Virus record (IMG/VR): IMGVR_UViG_3300046002_004363
Coordinates: 35,578-99,577 of that record
DNA length: 64,000 bases
Reading direction: 5' to 3' (one strand)
Origin: a virus
Each line of letters starts with the position of its first letter. Position 1 is the stretch's first letter. Shown here piece by piece: positions 30,376-37,971 of this stretch. The notes under the pieces are model-generated. The model made no database searches, was not told where the DNA came from, and saw nothing but the letters and a program-made list of their open reading frames with translations. A program made the position numbers and the translations under genes.

Positions 30376-30458
30376 CAATCAAGCACTTAGATTATTAATT
30401 AAAACATTTGATTTAGAGGTTTTCATTGAGAAATACTACTAAATAACACAACTAACCT

Positions 30459-30491
30459 AAAGAGAGGTATCGTATGGTACTTCTCTTTTTT
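30459..30491 (+). terminator. Rho-independent terminator
   Basis: An 11-bp stem (30459-30469 with 30478-30488, one G-T pair) with an 8-base loop and T run follows the HNH gene, 20 bases before the ERF gene. ERF-gene expression must then come from read-through or an unseen promoter. Confidence 0.8.
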
Positions 30492-30511
30492 AATACAAAA
30501 CAAATTAAATT

Positions 30512-31152: not shown

Positions 31153-31866
31153 ATGAATAAAATAATTTTAATAGACGCTGACAGTTTTGCATACATAGGT
31201 AATAACTGCGAAGAAGTAGACCAAGCATACGATAAAGTAGACCAAGCAATATCAAATATCATAGCGACATCTGGAGCAAGTCATTACAAGGTTTTCATTG
31301 AAGCAATTGGAAACCAAACATTTAGACGTATTGCATTTAATTCTTATAAGTCAGGAAGAAAAAATAAAGAACTGCCAAAGTATTATAAAGACATAAAGCA
31401 ATACATAATTGAAACTTATAACCCATTCATTAGTTGTGGTGTTGAGAGTGATGATTCTATAATTTCAACACACAAGCATTTAAAAGAAGAATATCCGTTC
31501 ACAGAAATAATAATTGCAGCAATGGATAAAGACTATCTAACACACGAAATATCAAGGTTTGATACTTATTACAGCAGATTCGGAGAAATAAAAACAGTTA
31601 GCAAAAAAGAAGCTGAATTTAATTTTTATAAACAAATGATAGAAGGTGACTCTAGCGACTCCGTTTCTGGCGTTAAAGGTTCTGGTAAGGTAATGGCAGA
31701 GAAAGTCCTTAAAAATAGCTATAATTACTTTATATCGACCTGTAGGCATTATAAGTTAAAGCATAAGAATAAATGGAGGGATAGTTTTAAGAAAAATTAC
31801 TTCCTATTAAGGATAAGAGATGATGTTAGGTTTTGTAAAGAACTTGATTTAGTTGAGTTTGAATAA
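31153..31866 (+). CDS. 5'-3' exonuclease (FEN/PIN-like)
   Basis: A 237-residue nuclease. The acidic residues of a FEN-type metal site occur as LIDADSFAY (7-15), VESDDSIIS (about 97-105) and AAMDKDYL (about 119-126), and QMIEGDSSDSVSGVKGSGKV (about 163-182) is the helix-3-turn-helix region that binds DNA. It should resect 5' ends for ERF annealing and remove RNA primers, like T7 gp6. Confidence 0.85.
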   Translation: MNKIILIDADSFAYIGNNCEEVDQAYDKVDQAISNIIATSGASHYKVFIEAIGNQTFRRIAFNSYKSGRKNKELPKYYKDIKQYIIETYNPFISCGVESDDSIISTHKHLKEEYPFTEIIIAAMDKDYLTHEISRFDTYYSRFGEIKTVSKKEAEFNFYKQMIEGDSSDSVSGVKGSGKVMAEKVLKNSYNYFISTCRHYKLKHKNKWRDSFKKNYFLLRIRDDVRFCKELDLVEFE

Positions 31867-31882
31867 TTTTTTTGTATCTTTG
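31853..31882 (+). promoter_or_regulatory. Promoter before the second HNH gene
   Basis: TTG (31853-31855), 19 bases, TATCTTTG (31875-31882). It overlaps the end of the exonuclease gene and starts the structured leader at 31885. Confidence 0.7.
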
Positions 31883-31884
31883 TG

Positions 31885-31977
31885 TTGCATTTGAAATCTC
31901 GACAATATAATGCAATAAAAATATTTGCCTTGCGATACGGATAGGAGTCGAGACCTTGAAGTATTGTGAGGCTTTTT
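31885..31977 (+). ncRNA. Pseudoknotted structured leader (type member 1)
   Basis: Hairpin TTGCAT/ATGCAA (31885-31890, 31910-31915) displays TCTCGAC (31897-31903) in its loop. That segment pairs with GTCGAGA (31947-31953). Between them GCCTTGCGATAC (31927-31938) pairs, including G-T pairs, over 12 positions with GTATTGTGAGGC (31961-31972), which a T run follows. The two helices cross, so this is a pseudoknot; the spacer between them is CCTTGAA. The terminal helix plus T run looks like an attenuator. The layout is repeated at 34523. Confidence 0.65.
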
Positions 31978-31990
31978 AATTTTAAAAGAT

Positions 31991-32725
31991 ATGTTAAAAA
32001 AATGTAGTAAATGTAAAGAAGAAAAAAAAATTGTTGAGTTTTCAAAAGACAAAACAAGAAAAGATGGTTATTATCATCAATGCAAAAGTTGTAGAAAAGA
32101 ATGGAGATTAAATAATAAAGAAAAGCAAAAAAAATACTATGATAATAATAAAGAAAGGATAAAAGAACGAGATAAAAAATATTATAAAGAAAATAAAGAA
32201 ATAATATCAATACAAAAAAAACAATACAAGCAAAAAAATAAAGAAAATATAACAGAACAAAGAAAACAATATAGAAAAGAAAATAAAGAATATATAAACA
32301 AATACGGAAAACAATACTATGAAAAAAATAAGGGTAAAATAAAAAAATGGCATGAAGAAAATAAAGAAAAAAGAAATGAATATGCAAGAAAATATAACAA
32401 ACAAAGAAAACAAACAGACTCATTATTCAAATTAAGAAATAATATTGGCTCTTTAATTTGTCATTCAATGAAAAATAAAGGATATACTAAACGTTCTAAA
32501 ACATTTGAGATACTAGGTTGTTCTTATGAAGAATTTAAGTTGCACATAGAAAAACAATTCAAAGATGGTATGAGTTGGGAAAATACTGGACAATGGCACT
32601 ACGACCATATTTACCCTGTATCTTTAGCTAAAGATGAAGAAGAATTAATTAAATTAAATCATTACACTAATTTTCAGCCGTTATGGGCTATTGATAACTT
32701 AAAAAAAGGAAATAAAATAATATAG
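31991..32725 (+). CDS. HNH homing endonuclease with zinc ribbon
   Basis: A 244-residue protein. CSKCKEEKKIVEFSKDKTRK and HQCKSCRKEW form an N-terminal zinc ribbon; residues 40-140 are an extremely Lys/Glu/Asn/Tyr-rich helical linker with KxYxxNKE-type repeats; the C-terminus HYDHIYPVSLAKDEEELIKL then HYTNFQPLWAIDNLKKGNK is an HNH nuclease with Asp-His metal/catalytic residues. Free-standing homing endonuclease. Base composition is more A-rich than its neighbours. It follows the structured leader by 13 bases. Confidence 0.88.
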   Translation: MLKKCSKCKEEKKIVEFSKDKTRKDGYYHQCKSCRKEWRLNNKEKQKKYYDNNKERIKERDKKYYKENKEIISIQKKQYKQKNKENITEQRKQYRKENKEYINKYGKQYYEKNKGKIKKWHEENKEKRNEYARKYNKQRKQTDSLFKLRNNIGSLICHSMKNKGYTKRSKTFEILGCSYEEFKLHIEKQFKDGMSWENTGQWHYDHIYPVSLAKDEEELIKLNHYTNFQPLWAIDNLKKGNKII

Positions 32726-32729
32726 AATT

Positions 32730-33038
32730 ATGGCAAAACAAAAGGTAGAAGCATTTTTCCCTAAGGAGGAAGAAATCGCAATGGTAGGAGTGATTAATAA
32801 GGAGGTTAAGGTAGCTTTCTCAGTTGAGAAGGCAGACTACGGATTTTATGTGGTTAGGTATAACCTTAATGATAATTTAGAAGGTATTAAAGATACCATA
32901 AGTTATAAGAGGATTGATACGAATGAGAGTGATAGCAAAAGAAATAGAGTTATCTTTAGTAATCAAAGTGATGCGGAGAGAGAGGTTATTAAATCGTACA
33001 ATCAAGTGTTTAACTATATTCAAGAAAAAAGAAAGTAA
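32730..33038 (+). CDS. Hypothetical protein
   Basis: A 102-residue protein (EAFFPKEEEIAMVGVINKEV; FSVEKADYGFYVVRYNLND) with a beta-barrel look. It follows the HNH gene by 4 bases and precedes the gene at 33041 by 2 bases. Unknown, perhaps part of the replication set. Confidence 0.5.
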   Translation: MAKQKVEAFFPKEEEIAMVGVINKEVKVAFSVEKADYGFYVVRYNLNDNLEGIKDTISYKRIDTNESDSKRNRVIFSNQSDAEREVIKSYNQVFNYIQEKRK

Positions 33039-33040
33039 TT

Positions 33041-33292
33041 ATGGAAACAATTAAGGAGAAAATTATCAGTAGAGTAAATGTGATATACAATACTCTAATC
33101 AAGGTAAACAAAAAAGACTCTGTATCTGAAGATGTTAAGAGCATTAGGTTTGTAGTATTCAATGGTAAGACCACAGAAGAATCAATTAAGATTAAGAAAA
33201 TGTTTGATGTAGTCTTCGAGAGAGAATTAAGCAAGAGGTTACAAGAGGCAAACAACGAATTAAGTATAATTAATAACCATATAAATAAATAA
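33041..33292 (+). CDS. Hypothetical helical protein
   Basis: An 83-residue helical, charged protein (KKMFDVVFERELSKRLQEAN). No motif. Likely translated together with its close neighbours. Confidence 0.45.
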   Translation: METIKEKIISRVNVIYNTLIKVNKKDSVSEDVKSIRFVVFNGKTTEESIKIKKMFDVVFERELSKRLQEANNELSIINNHINK

Positions 33293-33296
33293 GATT

Positions 33297-33779
33297 ATGT
33301 ATTTAGACGAAGTAATCTACAATATTGTAGTAAATGAAGCAAAAGAGATTAAGGGAGAAGAAACTAAATCATTTGTGGGCAGAAAAATTAAGTGTATGAA
33401 AGACAATGCCAACCATACATTAGCTGTGAAGGGAGAGGTAGTTGAAGTGATTCATCAAGACGGAAGTGTATTAACCATAAGCAAACCAATAAATGGTATT
33501 GATGGTATGAAGATAACTTCTTGTATGATTGGTAAGGAATTTAAACTACTGAAGAAGAAAGGCAAGAAAGACACCATAGTTGAAGCAATTGTAGATAAAT
33601 TTAATGATAGAAGTGATGTTGGTATTAAGAAATACAACACTACATTAGATAGGGAAGACCTTACAACAGAGCAGTGGATTGATCACGCAATTGAGGAAGG
33701 AATGGATATGATTCTGTACTTAGAGAGATTGAAGAGAGATATAACCAATATTAAGAAAGCTGTAAGAGATGGAGAATAA
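33297..33779 (+). CDS. Hypothetical protein with barrel-like N-terminus
   Basis: A 160-residue protein. VGRKIKCMKDNANHTLAVKG then EVVEVIHQDGSVLTISKPIN look like a small beta-barrel; the C-terminal 60 residues contain LTTEQWIDHAIEEGMDMILY, a helical pattern common to phage proteins related to dATP/ATP-grasp or nucleoside pyrophosphatase regulators, but I cannot name the family. It overlaps the next gene by 11 bases. Confidence 0.5.
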   Translation: MYLDEVIYNIVVNEAKEIKGEETKSFVGRKIKCMKDNANHTLAVKGEVVEVIHQDGSVLTISKPINGIDGMKITSCMIGKEFKLLKKKGKKDTIVEAIVDKFNDRSDVGIKKYNTTLDREDLTTEQWIDHAIEEGMDMILYLERLKRDITNIKKAVRDGE

Positions 33780-33999
33780 GACACTACAGAGGGTAATCTT
33801 TGAACTATCTGGGCAAAAGAACAATAGGGAGTTTGCAAAGTACATCAGGAGATCAGAGAGTTATACATCGAATATGATAAACTCAGATAAGAATATAAGT
33901 GTTGAACTTGGAATTGATATGATGCAGAGAATGTACTTAGATAAGGAGTTAATTAAGGAGGTTATATTAAATTATATAGATGAGGCTTTCTTTATTTAG
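33769..33999 (+). CDS. Cro/CI-like helix-turn-helix protein
   Basis: A 76-residue protein. NREFAKYIRRSESYTSNMIN (about 19-38) is a helix-turn-helix of Cro/CI type and the flanking helices fit a five-helix repressor fold. It overlaps the previous gene and lies just before the non-coding RNA promoter at 34011, which it may regulate. Confidence 0.55.
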   Translation: MENKTLQRVIFELSGQKNNREFAKYIRRSESYTSNMINSDKNISVELGIDMMQRMYLDKELIKEVILNYIDEAFFI

Positions 34000-34010
34000 A
34001 AGATAGTTCT

Positions 34011-34019
34011 TATATTTGC
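34011..34019 (+). promoter_or_regulatory. -7 promoter box of the tRNA-like RNA gene
   Basis: TATATTTGC, a consensus -7 box, 12 bases after the HTH gene stop. No clear -33 box. No protein gene follows for over 600 bases, so it should make a non-coding RNA. Confidence 0.65.
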
Positions 34020-34145
34020 AAAGGTGCTTATCGCTGTCGGTATTCGGCAGTATCAGGAATAAGTTAAATGGTAGTTCATTCAGCCTTAAAGTAAAATAGC
34101 TAAGCTGTGTAAAGCGTTCAAACTGATAATTGATTAGAAGCTAAA

Positions 34146-34324
34146 TCGGGTGTGGCGGAATGCTAACAATGTGAGTTAAATCGTTAAGGTGTTTAATTCC
34201 TGTTGTTACTAGGTAGACGCAAAAAGATAAGGATAGTGTCATCGTGGGTGTGGAATGGAAAAAGCCCACACGAGTCCTTACTTGGAAATCCACAATTGCA
34301 GGTTCGAATCCTGTCACCCGAGCA
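34146..34324 (+). ncRNA. tRNA-Leu-like domain with D-loop and anticodon-arm insertions
   Basis: The 7-bp acceptor stem is perfect (TCGGGTG 34146-34152 with CACCCGA 34315-34321). TGGCGGAAT and GGTAGACGC give the D-arm of a leucine tRNA (stem GCG/CGC), but about 50 bases at 34162-34211, forming helices TAACAA/TTGTTA and GAGTTAAA/TTTAATTC, separate its halves. The T-arm GCAGG-TTCGAAT-CCTGT (34298-34314) is canonical and a short variable arm (TGGA/TCCA) precedes it. In place of a 7-base anticodon loop there is a long TAAGGA/TCCTTA-based arm. The end is GCA rather than a CCA. It cannot decode as it stands; a decoy, primer or processing signal is possible. Confidence 0.7.
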
Positions 34325-34329
34325 TAGTA

Positions 34330-34440
34330 GTTTTCTTATGATAAAAATCTTTACAAATCCTGTAAGGTAGCTATTCCACTTGGTCGTTTCAACTGACAGT
34401 ATAAGAAAACGGTAAACTCATAATTGACTGTCAAAAGTGG
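34330..34440 (+). ncRNA. Pseudoknotted domain of the tRNA-like RNA
   Basis: GTTTTCTTAT (34330-34339) pairs perfectly with ATAAGAAAAC (34401-34410). Inside lies a CTTTACA/TGTAAGG hairpin. CCACTT (34376-34381) pairs with AAGTGG (34435-34440) and TGACAGT (34394-34400) with ACTGTCA (34427-34433); both helices open inside the first and close outside it, so they cross it as a pseudoknot. Confidence 0.6.
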
Positions 34441-34453
34441 ATATGGATTGACA

Positions 34454-34478
34454 AATCGGAAAGACGATTATTTTTTTT
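34454..34478 (+). terminator. Terminator of the tRNA-like RNA
   Basis: AATCG/CGATT hairpin (34454-34458, 34465-34469) with an A then eight Ts. It marks the 3' end of the RNA. Confidence 0.7.
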
Positions 34479-34510
34479 AAACATATCTAAAATTGAATAT
34501 AAATATTTTG

Positions 34511-34519
34511 TATCTTTGC
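34511..34519 (+). promoter_or_regulatory. -7 promoter box of the T5orf172-type gene
   Basis: TATCTTTGC, followed at once by the structured leader. A TTG lies 15 bases upstream, closer than ideal. Confidence 0.65.
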
Positions 34520-34522
34520 TGA

Positions 34523-34620
34523 GTAATTTCTGTGGAGGATTAATTACAATTGAAAATATTACAATATCATTAGAAACCTTATAAGGATTAGAGCCTCCAC
34601 CTCGAAACTTATAGGGTTTT
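34523..34620 (+). ncRNA. Pseudoknotted structured leader (type member 2)
   Basis: Hairpin GTAATT/AATTAC (34523-34528, 34542-34547) shows GTGGAGG (34532-34538) in its loop, which pairs with CCTCCAC (34594-34600). AAACCTTATAAG (34574-34585) pairs over 12 positions with CTTATAGGGTTT (34608-34619), and the helices cross. The spacer is CTCGAAA and the segment before the second strand is GATTAGAG (8 bases; GGATAGGA in the leader at 31885). Sequence of the paired parts differs from that leader while architecture is kept, which argues for selected structure. Confidence 0.65.
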
Positions 34621-34639
34621 CTGTTTTAAATAATTTAGT

Positions 34640-35173
34640 ATGGAAAATAAAATAATTAACAATCAATTAAAAGCGTTTCAACTTATTGAGAGTGAAGATT
34701 CAGTCATATTTTTTAACGGATCTTGCTATGAAAACCCCTCAATTGATGAATTAAAGAGAATTAAAAAGCTAATAGATTCAACGATAAATAATTATGAATC
34801 TATATCTTTGGCTATACAAAAATCAAACAATATAATTCAAGAAGAAAGATTTAAAGAATTTGAAGATATATTTAAGCCAAAAAAAGCTAACAAACCTAAA
34901 AAAGGTATAATATATATTATGAAGTGTGGAAGAACAAATCTATATAAAATAGGTTTAACAACTGGAAATGTAAATACAAGATTTAATTCTTTAAAAACAG
35001 CAAATCCTAATATAAACTTGTTTAAATACTACAAAGAAGTAGTTGACCTATACAGCAAAGAAAGAGAATTACATGATTTATTTTGTAATAAAAGAATAGA
35101 TGGAGAATGGTTCGAACTTAATGAGTCAGACTTATGTGAAATAGATTTATTTTTTAACGTTGTGCCTTTTTAA
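34640..35173 (+). CDS. T5orf172/GIY-YIG-family protein
   Basis: A 177-residue protein. The C-terminal 90 residues are the T5orf172 version of the GIY-YIG fold: KKGIIYIMKCGRTNLYKIGL, then TTGNVNTRFNSLKTANPNIN, and a conserved glutamate in ELHDLF followed by GEWFEL. The N-terminal 85 residues are a helical domain of unknown role (SIDELKRIKKLIDSTINNYE). It may be a homing or defence-type nuclease. It overlaps no credible start of the next gene, whose chosen start is 35193. Confidence 0.78.
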   Translation: MENKIINNQLKAFQLIESEDSVIFFNGSCYENPSIDELKRIKKLIDSTINNYESISLAIQKSNNIIQEERFKEFEDIFKPKKANKPKKGIIYIMKCGRTNLYKIGLTTGNVNTRFNSLKTANPNINLFKYYKEVVDLYSKERELHDLFCNKRIDGEWFELNESDLCEIDLFFNVVPF

Positions 35174-35192: not shown

Positions 35193-36134
35193 ATGAATCA
35201 TAGTTTTAACGTAGATATAGCAAAAAAATATGGTGTAGAATTGGCTATAATTTTAGAAAATATGCAGTGGTGGATTGCTAAAAATAAAGCTAATAAAAAG
35301 CATTTTCATCAAGGAAGTTACTGGACATATAATTCTGTAAAAGCATTTTCTGAACTATTTCCTTATTGGTCTGTACATCAAATAGGCAGGTTTTTAAGAA
35401 GACTAGAAGACGAAGGTTTGATAGTGTCTAAAAACTTTAATAAGGCTGGATATGACAAGACAAAGTGGTATACAGTCAATGATAGCTTGATTTTGCAAAA
35501 TTGCAACATCGAATGTGCAGAAATGCACAATCCATTGTGTGAAAATGCACAACCTATACCAGATATAAACACAGATATAAATAATTCTCTTGTAGGGTCT
35601 TCTCAGACACCTACGAAAAAAGATTCTAAGAAAGATTTATTTAAAACCAAATTGTCAGAAATTGATGTTACTACACTTGATAAGCAAGAACAAGTATATT
35701 TTAAAATAGCTATTGGTTTTAGAGATTTGTTTATAAAGAACAAAAAGGCTTTAGGTGTTAATGATTTTAGAGACCAAGAAAACGCTACTTACAAAAATTA
35801 TGTTGACCCAATAAGATTATCTTTTACGCAAGATAAAAAAACAGAGGAAGATTTTAGAAAGGTGTATGCTTTTTTAATGAATGATGAATTCTGGATGAAG
35901 AATATAATGTCTACATCTAAGTTAAGAGAAAAAATGTCTGATTTACTGATAAGATCATCTTCTGTTCCGACTAAGAAACAAGTACTACCATCAGACTTTT
36001 GGGTAAGGGAATTAAGTGATGAGCAAAAGAAATTACTAAGCGATAAAGACTTAGCTACTTGGGAAAGACAGAAGACAGCAAGGCTTATGGAGGGTGGTAG
36101 AATGTTACCTATAAAAATAGAATATGAAAAATAA
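35193..36134 (+). CDS. Replication initiator-like protein (winged helix)
   Basis: A 313-residue protein starting MNHSFNVDIAKKYGVELAII. Residues 1-105 (FHQGSYWTYNSVKAFSELFP; SVHQIGRFLRRLEDEGLIVS) form a replisome-organiser winged helix as in phage O/DnaD-type initiators. A low-complexity linker follows, then a C-terminal domain (residues about 150-260) that would bind the helicase. An ATG at 35160 is in frame but overlaps the upstream gene. It is followed 4 bases later by the primase/ATPase gene, a normal pairing for origin recognition and helicase loading. Confidence 0.75.
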   Translation: MNHSFNVDIAKKYGVELAIILENMQWWIAKNKANKKHFHQGSYWTYNSVKAFSELFPYWSVHQIGRFLRRLEDEGLIVSKNFNKAGYDKTKWYTVNDSLILQNCNIECAEMHNPLCENAQPIPDINTDINNSLVGSSQTPTKKDSKKDLFKTKLSEIDVTTLDKQEQVYFKIAIGFRDLFIKNKKALGVNDFRDQENATYKNYVDPIRLSFTQDKKTEEDFRKVYAFLMNDEFWMKNIMSTSKLREKMSDLLIRSSSVPTKKQVLPSDFWVRELSDEQKKLLSDKDLATWERQKTARLMEGGRMLPIKIEYEK

Positions 36135-36138
36135 AGAT

Positions 36139-37971
36139 ATGAAAGTAGCGGTATTTAACAACATTAACGATACGTCTGAACCAAGATATGTAGAGGTTAG
36201 TAAGATATTAAAGGCGATAAAAGATGGAGCTTTTAAGGATAAGGTAGAAGCTATTAGAAACGAGAACGATAAGGGTAATCAAAGTAGATTAAAGTCGTCT
36301 TTAACATCAATACTATTCTCTTCATCTAAACAAGAAGGTGTTGAATCAGGTAGAAACAATAAGGTTTCCTGGAGAACAGATAAGGGATTGGTAGAGCATA
36401 GCGGTCTTATGTGTCTTGACTTAGATAAGTTTAGTAATGAGTTCGAGATGATTTCTATTAAGGATGATTTAATGAATGATGACTATGTATTCTCTGTATT
36501 CGTATCTCCATCTGGTGAAGGTTTAAAGGTATTAGTTAAAGTTCCAACTCAAATTGAAAACCACAGGAAATACTTTTATGGTCTTAAGGAACACTTTAAT
36601 TCACCTAACTTTGATGATTCTTGTGTTAATGAGGCAAGAGTTTGTTATGTTTCTTACGATGAAGGCATTTACATAAATGAGGATTCTTTAGTATTCGATA
36701 AGATGCTTGAACAAAAAACTCAAATAGTAGAGGTTAAGGAAGTAAAGGTTCAGGTTAAGGCTGATAATAATAGAATTATAGACGGTCTTTATAAGTGGTG
36801 GTCAGATAGATACGGTCTTATAGACGGAGAAAGAAATAGGAATACCTACATCCTTGCTATGGCTTTCAATGAATTTGGAATACCAGAGTTACAAGCTAAG
36901 TCTTTTATGTCTCAGTTCGAACACACTGGTTTTGAAATTCAAGAGATTAATTCTTGTATAGAGAGTGCTTATAATAAGACACACGTATTTGGAACTAAGT
37001 CATTTACAGATGAAGAGACCATAATAAAAGAATACCTACCTAATGATGTAGCTCCAAAACAAAGTATATCTGTAAACCTTGAGAATATATACAAGGCTTC
37101 ATTTGTTGATGTGACTAAGAAGATTGAGTATCCACCAGTAGCTGTATCAATTGGAACACACAGAATGGGAAGTAAAGATTTCCCTATACCATTTGGAACT
37201 TACGGAAACTTTAGTTGTATTGTTGGGGCATCTAAGTCTAAGAAGACATTCTTAAAGTCTCTGATTACAGCATCATTTATTGGAGGTCAAACATCTAACT
37301 ATACATCTTCTATAAAAAGCCACAGAGATAGAGAATGCTTTATCATTGATTTGGATACTGAGCAATCAAGTTGGCACGCACAGAATGTATTTAAGAGGGT
37401 TACAAGATTAGTTGGTGTTGAAAATTACGAGTTTTATAAACCATTTGCATTAAGACCATACGAACCTAAAGAGAGACTTCAGTTTATAGAGTGGTTGATT
37501 TACGAAAGCGAGATGAAGGATAATATCGGTTTTATAGCAATTGATGGTCTTGCAGATTTAGTTAATGACTTTAATGATCTAAAAGAAAGTCAGGCTGTAA
37601 TACAAAAAGTTATGACTTGGACTGATGATAAGCAATTTCACTTAACAACTATCTTGCACTCCAACTTTGGAACTACTAAAGCTGTAGGGCATATAGGTTC
37701 ATCTATGTTAAAGAAGGCAGAAACTGTATGTCAAGTAACTCCAGAAGGTGATTGTGTTAAAGCTCACTTTAGCCACACAAGGGGATTTCCAATAGCAGAT
37801 TTTTGTTATTCAGTTAATGAAGATGGTCTTCCGTACTTATTGAATGAGAATGCAGAACCTATAATTAGAAAGGCTGTAAAGGAAATTGATGAGTGTGATG
37901 CTCCATTACCGACACCAACACCAGACCAAGCATTTGGACCAATAGATATTAATAACGCAATACCATTTTAA
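36139..37971 (+). CDS. BT4734/VirE_N-type primase-like domain fused to RecA-like ATPase
   Basis: A 610-residue replication protein. Residues about 85-190 are a BT4734/VirE_N domain (HSGLMCLDLDKFSNEF, FVSPSGEGLKVLVKV, EARVCYVSYDEGIYIN), a relative of archaeo-eukaryotic primases common in Bacteroidota. Residues 205-285 look like a primase C-terminal or DnaB-loading region (DGERNRNTYILAMAFNEFGI). Residues from about 345 form a RecA/RepA-like ATPase with Walker A GASKSKKT (363-370, the middle Gly replaced) and Walker B FIAIDGLADLV (near 462-472). It probably primes and unwinds DNA. ATG 36139 follows a TAAAGATATG junction and is preferred to 36124. Confidence 0.85.
   Translation: MKVAVFNNINDTSEPRYVEVSKILKAIKDGAFKDKVEAIRNENDKGNQSRLKSSLTSILFSSSKQEGVESGRNNKVSWRTDKGLVEHSGLMCLDLDKFSNEFEMISIKDDLMNDDYVFSVFVSPSGEGLKVLVKVPTQIENHRKYFYGLKEHFNSPNFDDSCVNEARVCYVSYDEGIYINEDSLVFDKMLEQKTQIVEVKEVKVQVKADNNRIIDGLYKWWSDRYGLIDGERNRNTYILAMAFNEFGIPELQAKSFMSQFEHTGFEIQEINSCIESAYNKTHVFGTKSFTDEETIIKEYLPNDVAPKQSISVNLENIYKASFVDVTKKIEYPPVAVSIGTHRMGSKDFPIPFGTYGNFSCIVGASKSKKTFLKSLITASFIGGQTSNYTSSIKSHRDRECFIIDLDTEQSSWHAQNVFKRVTRLVGVENYEFYKPFALRPYEPKERLQFIEWLIYESEMKDNIGFIAIDGLADLVNDFNDLKESQAVIQKVMTWTDDKQFHLTTILHSNFGTTKAVGHIGSSMLKKAETVCQVTPEGDCVKAHFSHTRGFPIADFCYSVNEDGLPYLLNENAEPIIRKAVKEIDECDAPLPTPTPDQAFGPIDINNAIPF

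Follow-up and report, generated by a model that had tools for sequence, protein, structure and literature searches.

Introduction

The HK022 put RNA antiterminators are two-hairpin RNAs situated just past a phage early promoter, and the leaders of the IncI/IncB/IncL-M rep genes harbor a pseudoknot that promotes translation and with which an antisense RNA competes. To our knowledge, the former have neither kissing loops nor a terminator within the element, and no terminator hairpin is involved in the latter. Here we describe two leader RNAs (leaders 1 and 2) from a 64,000-nucleotide (nt) stretch of viral DNA, hereafter the window, which is part of the 99,577-base-pair (bp) IMG/VR record IMGVR_UViG_3300046002_004363. 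This virus is related to the Flavobacterium elemo phages, with 85-87% identity across the early region where the two can be aligned. In each leader two hairpins, P1 and P2, kiss via their loops ahead of a start codon. Both are members of a family of leader RNAs not described before, found mainly in viruses of Bacteroidota, which chiefly heads phage replication operons and in which endonuclease genes are one sort of passenger.

These leaders invite comparison with several other known systems. The IncI/IncB/IncL-M rep leaders likewise show long-range loop pairing ahead of a replication initiator (works cited in PMC10724649). The transcription attenuator of plasmid pT181 repC is another replication-initiator leader that combines kissing hairpins with a terminator (PMC3753616); however, its kiss is formed in trans with an antisense RNA, whereas here it is in cis, with no antisense promoter found (see below). 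Among phages, RNA structure directly before an endonuclease gene is known from the T4-type homing endonuclease leaders (the I-TevI, mobE and SegB hairpins), which are thought to restrict endonuclease expression (PMC3014915). The resemblance to these appears to be one of position only: they are simple hairpins at the ribosome-binding site, in contrast to two kissing hairpins with a U-tract after P2, placed mainly before replication genes. The phage-carried motifs manA and wcaG and the pseudoknotted riboswitches are also structured phage 5' leaders, some of them pseudoknotted (PMC2864571), though manA and wcaG have a conserved, aptamer-like sequence and cyanophage hosts, whereas here an architecture is kept and not one sequence. 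The new RNA family is of a known kind, that of structured, probably attenuating, leaders. Literature searches, with subscription papers outside their scope, returned no description of the motif. The window has no match above the gathering threshold in Rfam 15, including to HEARO, the omega RNA of IscB nucleases, and nine member-bearing loci yielded tRNA matches only; the downstream proteins are HNH/EndoVII-like, GIY-YIG, NucS-like or DnaD-like.

Architecture of the two leaders

Both leaders display the same order of elements: promoter, hairpin P1, linker, hairpin P2, U-tract and ATG (Table 1). The P1 and P2 loops kiss with 7/7 pairs in each, and the P2 stem of leader 1 is 12/12 paired, with three G-U pairs among them. 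Thus, the plan that a preliminary description had set out for both leaders is borne out in its coordinates and its pairing. A descriptor asking for P1, the kiss and P2, with the U-tract not required, recovered leaders 1 and 2 as its top two matches in the window; their scores (z of about -6.5 to -7 and -4.4 to -5.2, respectively) were reached by 0 of 200-300 shuffles per leader. Further, a covariance model (R1) made from eight other phages and no window sequence returned leader 1 as its best window match (31879-31986, E 0.0076) and leader 2 as the third (E 1.7).

The two leaders had been taken to be independent sequences with one architecture. This does not hold for the pair itself, as they share the loop motif GGATWRGAG-N5-ACCTYGAA, with 2 matches in the window against 0.01 expected, even allowing 2 mismatches; it does hold for other members of the family, which are unrelated in sequence. 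In the genome of phage elemoE, which lacks these endonucleases, a scan of 50 of its 60 kb found a single such leader, at the replication operon, indicating that the device is rare per genome and has a defined location.

Covariation, strand and context

For the analysis of covariation we used subfamily A8, an alignment of 8 sequences; the MAFFT alignment of the wider set A6 shifted the P2 registers and was excluded from the counts. In A8 the kissing helix is 100% paired and 5/7 of its pairs show two-sided changes, while the whole structure has 41 two-sided cells against 12.7 when shuffled (0/500). The covariation score is 0.545, compared with at most 0.158 in slid controls. The P2 of leader 2 offers a further case, with U-A pairs becoming C-G in a relative (L015). 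Across 43 distinct kiss sequences the loops pair in cis with a mean of -14.4 kcal/mol, as against -6.2 for mixed pairs, a contrast that is illustrative and not proof, given that the set was chosen for cis pairing. The transcribed strand is better folded than its complement in 35/37 members (p 4e-10), an advantage expected of RNA because it has G-U pairs.

Two context features that were not used in detection likewise set the members apart. The Bacteroidota promoter element TAnnTTTG lies close upstream of P1 in 30/37 members versus 29/1039 controls, and a run of four T at the P2 end is found in 28/37 versus 72/1039 (p 2e-23); the terminator-like character that had been ascribed to the last helix and T run of the two leaders is thus a property of the family. 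The selected, pseudoknotted structure postulated at the outset is likewise upheld, in that a kissing-hairpin RNA family exists, beyond shuffles and with covariation: further members and structure-preserving changes between them, the two tests named beforehand, were both found.

Certain local features recur in parts of the family. ATATT is seen near P2 in 15/50 members against 4.8 expected. A GGA opposite a GAA forms an internal loop between the outer and inner P2 stems of several leaders that are otherwise unrelated (L050, L057, L095, L021, L033 and, in the window, 31939-31960), where tandem G-A pairs are possible. Mini-hairpins with the start codon in their 3' strand are present in L164, L166, L177, L220 and others, in forms such as AUAC-GGAAN-GUAUG and AUAAC-GGAAU-GUUAUG with matching stem changes.

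Relatives and distribution

Searching viral contigs with the exact loop motif returned 25 stretches, of which about ten are full-plan leaders with a matching kiss (among them L021, TTCGCAC/GTGCGAA; L026, GTGGTGG/CCACCAC; and L033, TGTCCAC/GTGGACA); the remainder are chance-like and without a kissing partner. The N5 core of the motif varies in concert with the P1 loop. A wider search was baited with HNH endonucleases together with a small nuclease-like gene; here the generic descriptor recovered sequence-unrelated leaders immediately upstream of the start codon. Loci of the small gene carry a leader at p ≤ 0.01 in 56/77 cases, versus only 5/78 testable loci of the HNH relatives, two of which (L126 and L127) share one leader. 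This rules out an endonuclease-specific leader, and the original notion of a family of leaders before homing endonuclease genes proves too narrow.

The small gene encodes a NucS/EndoMS-like PD-(D/E)XK protein. Pfam NucS_C is matched by one member (E 4e-4), and EndoMS and NucS are the best, albeit weak, matches of the AlphaFold model (E 6e-3; template-modelling scores 0.44 and 0.39). This gene family (L132 5001-5537 and 76 related loci) often opens the replication operon of Bacteroidota phages and is labelled DUF1016 or hypothetical in the records. The leader has an equivalent gene position in three groups of cultured phages. In Cellulophaga phage Nekkels_1 it precedes the NucS-like gene (z -8.5, 0/300 shuffles) and in Bacteroides phage BF1-TP2 a NUMOD4 HNH gene just upstream of the NucS-like gene (z -6.0, 0/300 shuffles); in both the NucS-like gene lies directly upstream of replication genes. 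A sequence-diverse leader RNA that is absent from Rfam is widespread at the head of replication operons in phages of Flavobacterium, Cellulophaga and Bacteroides. The leaders of L126 and L132/L143 follow sigma70-like promoters, as judged by eye, and the hosts may therefore extend beyond Bacteroidota.

The strict motif has 6 chance-like matches in bacterial genomes, none with the plan, and beyond the known members the relaxed pattern gave chance-like matches only. The replication initiator as bait provided no new leaders. Among 395 Bacteroidota genomes the NucS-like gene was found in none, in a search run without a positive control, and model R1 had weak matches in 2, one with no kissing score and the other with a weak one.

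Modularity and mobile endonucleases

The same leader can stand before quite different genes. Near-identical or closely similar copies of leader 2 precede a 61-amino-acid open reading frame (ORF; L006), the GIY-YIG-clan gene of the window, an HNH gene (L036), the NucS-like gene (L039, L015) and the replication initiator itself (L011). In elemoE a near-identical copy precedes a replication operon free of the endonuclease, the GIY-YIG-clan gene being missing there; leader 2 is thus a replication-operon leader behind which this gene has been placed. Conversely, in closely related elemo phages one and the same small ORF is preceded by leaders of different types, whose two kissing strands have changed in concert (GAGAGC/GCTCTC in L002, GAGATG/CATCTC in L004).

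Leader 1 and its promoter are nearly identical before the HNH gene of the window and a NUMOD3 GIY-YIG gene (L017), the two units occupying neighbouring insertion sites that flank an exonuclease gene. The two endonucleases are unrelated, and the endonuclease unit therefore carries a promoter-leader cassette with it. The window HNH gene is inserted between the exonuclease gene (31153-31866) and the next gene, at a site that is empty in elemoE. The 3' half of the exonuclease gene, by the insert, has diverged from its elemoE counterpart, whereas near identity is kept in the downstream flank, a pattern that suggests homing with co-conversion.

A proposed mechanism and its alternatives

We hold, with moderate confidence, that the element is an intrinsic terminator docked by a kissing loop, i.e., an attenuator that would limit or time read-through into early DNA-metabolism genes. 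The family has the anatomy of an intrinsic terminator, namely a stable hairpin followed directly by a U-tract, and in most members the U-tract ends about 25 nt downstream of the kissing strand, which should therefore exit the polymerase before the termination decision. In outline, transcription would begin at or just upstream of P1, which would fold first and present a loop strand of 6-8 nt. The P2-loop strand, once out of RNA polymerase, would then dock on the P1 loop, about 25 nt before the U-tract ends and with P2 still emerging. P2 and the U-tract would act as the terminator just upstream of the ATG, with the docked P1 setting how often P2 is completed in time to stop the polymerase. The outcome would be restricted or timed read-through into replication genes, and homing endonucleases that lie behind such a leader, or bring their own promoter-leader cassette, would fall under the same control. 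The on/off switching of expression by the RNA that was first suggested appears plausible.

Several points weigh against attenuation: (i) structure, covariation and gene setting are shown, but termination is inferred from the anatomy, and so too are an effect of docking on it and any ligand or factor sensed matters of inference; (ii) no competing antiterminator helix was identified in the leaders; (iii) with the short linkers the kiss and the full P2 may or may not fit together, linker-length geometry being too crude a measure of their mutual exclusion; (iv) the U-tract of leader 2 is interrupted (TTTTCTGTTTT); (v) P2 ends 6-40 nt from the ATG, so that an action on translation is possible. From the sequence, docking might either help or hinder termination.

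The last of the enumerated points bears on the main rival, translational control, in which the docked P1 and P2, often with a start-codon hairpin, would block or meter ribosome entry, the U-tract being an A/U-rich initiation region. It takes this place because of the nearness of P2 to the ATG and the start-codon mini-hairpins common in part of the family (at least 4 bp in 27/42 members versus 211/1119 controls); moreover, the T4-type endonuclease leaders sequester the ribosome-binding site (PMC3014915). Nevertheless, we consider it unlikely: the tract after P2 is 70% T, versus 34% in the linker, and never has AAAA, which is more in keeping with a terminator than with an initiation region that is A/U-rich in a generic way, and the start-codon hairpin is missing in many members, leader 1 included.

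Alternatively, the clamped structure might, as a 5' stabiliser, shield the early mRNA from decay, or the leader, once terminated at about 100 nt, might itself be a stable small RNA with read-through as a by-product. P1 at the expected 5' end, P2 and the U-tract as a typical small-RNA 3' end, and the free variation of the kiss sequence, in which self-complementarity alone is kept as would suit a mechanical role, speak for this; it leaves unexplained why the element has a fixed site directly upstream of a start codon and is concentrated at replication and nuclease genes. We regard it as decidedly unlikely. Less probable again is a switch that senses a metabolite or phage protein through the internal loops by the kiss (GGA/GAA, GGATWRGAG-N5-ACCTYGAA) and so sets termination. 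Riboswitches that combine loop-loop contacts with terminators do exist, the loop motif is strongly conserved in unrelated stems, and in several members the inner stem is flanked by GGA/GAA; yet, unlike in a single aptamer, no motif is common to all members and the flanks differ between subfamilies, nor is there an Rfam match.

In having kissing loops ahead of a replication initiator gene the leaders are reminiscent of plasmid copy control, and an antisense-driven attenuator as in pT181, with the loops also serving as targets of a counter-transcript, may be envisaged. We judge this very improbable, as phage-type antisense promoters occur in 2/56 loci against 7.9 expected (sense, 46/56 against 4.3) and none lies near either window leader. 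Finally, chance complementarity in A/T-rich DNA, although one strand of a shuffled 64 kb contains about 8 generic hairpin pairs, is already refuted by the shuffles of each leader, the family-wide covariation and the enrichment in context, and has practically no probability left. A leader peptide was also considered and rejected: internal ATGs occur in 27/37 leaders, which by a rough estimate is around the level of base composition, and such peptides, of which a few were inspected by eye, are very short there and do not recur among the leaders.

Should the element indeed be an attenuator, it would reveal how replication is metered in these phages, on whose early gene control we found little literature, and why mobile endonucleases accumulate downstream of the same leader. 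More tentatively, one might see in it a general phage RNA device, which we think possible rather than probable: an intrinsic terminator that is switched when its apical loop docks on a hairpin upstream of it, wherein complementarity and not sequence is kept, giving lineage-specific orthogonal locks that time replication and nuclease genes and are carried by mobile endonucleases. The dozens of natural kiss pairs offer a ready test set for the effects of loop-loop docking on termination.

Gene setting and minor observations

The DnaD-like gene belongs to the native operon behind leader 2; its ATG is internal to an ORF listed from 35160.

Table 1. Leaders 1 and 2 and the genes behind them, in window coordinates.
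Feature	Position	Strand	Remarks
Leader 1	31875-31990	+	Upstream of HNH/endonuclease VII-like gene
Leader 1 promoter element TATCTTTG	31875..31882	+	Bacteroidota-type -7 element; from sequence
Leader 1 hairpin P1	31885..31915	+	TTGCATT 31885-31891 with AATGCAA 31909-31915
Leader 1 P1 loop, kissing strand TCTCGAC	31897-31903	+	
Leader 1 linker, A/U-rich, AAAAATATTT motif common to other members	31916..31926	+	Aligned by covariance model R1
Leader 1 hairpin P2 (terminator-like)	31927..31972	+	GCCTTGCGATAC 31927-31938 with GTATTGTGAGGC 31961-31972
Leader 1 P2 loop, 22 nt, GGATAGGAGTCGAGACCTTGAA	31939-31960	+	Order GGATAGGA-GTCGAGA-CCTTGAA
Leader 1 P2-loop kissing strand GTCGAGA	31947-31953	+	
Leader 1 U-tract, immediately 3' of P2	31973..31977	+	From sequence
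Leader 1 start codon ATG	31991	+	
HNH/endonuclease VII-like homing endonuclease gene behind leader 1	31991..32725	+	PHROG 1035 endonuclease VII, E 2e-18
Leader 2	34511-34639	+	Upstream of MUG113/T5orf172 gene
Leader 2 promoter element TATCTTTG	34511..34518	+	From sequence
Leader 2 hairpin P1	34523..34547	+	34523-34528 with 34542-34547
Leader 2 P1-loop kissing strand GTGGAGG	34532-34538	+	
Leader 2 hairpin P2 (terminator-like)	34573..34620	+	34573-34585 with 34608-34620; loop GATTAGAGCCTCCACCTCGAAA
Leader 2 P2-loop kissing strand CCTCCAC	34594-34600	+	
Leader 2 T-rich tract	34617-34627	+	
Leader 2 start codon ATG	34640	+	
MUG113/T5orf172 gene, GIY-YIG clan, between leader 2 and replication operon	34640..35173	+	Pfam PF13455 E 1.7e-11, PF10544 E 8e-9
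DnaD-like replication initiation protein	35193..36134	+	PHROG 11233 replication initiation E 6e-37; PHROG 6493 DnaD-like E 7e-20
Primase/helicase-like gene, same operon as DnaD-like gene	36124..37971	+	Pfam BT4734-like_N; DNA primase/helicase is the annotation of genes in this position

Another terminator-like hairpin with a T-run (AGAGAGGTATC...GGTACTTCTCTTTTTT, 30376-30511) lies immediately upstream of the erf start codon; it is without a clear kissing partner and is kept in phage elemoA (L004 3785-3892). At 34147-34324 there is a tRNA-Leu-like sequence, called by neither ARAGORN nor Rfam, with acceptor strands CGGGTG/CACCCG, the T-arm GCAGGTTCGAATCCTGT and two extra hairpins, one (about 40 nt) within the D-loop and one at the anticodon region; the elemo phages have an ordinary tRNA-Met in its place. 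Finally, the 99.6-kb record contains a second early region (L223 7609, compared with window 34640) that, as in L007, has a replication initiator of its own and a kissing leader unlike the first, and may represent two related phage genomes joined together.

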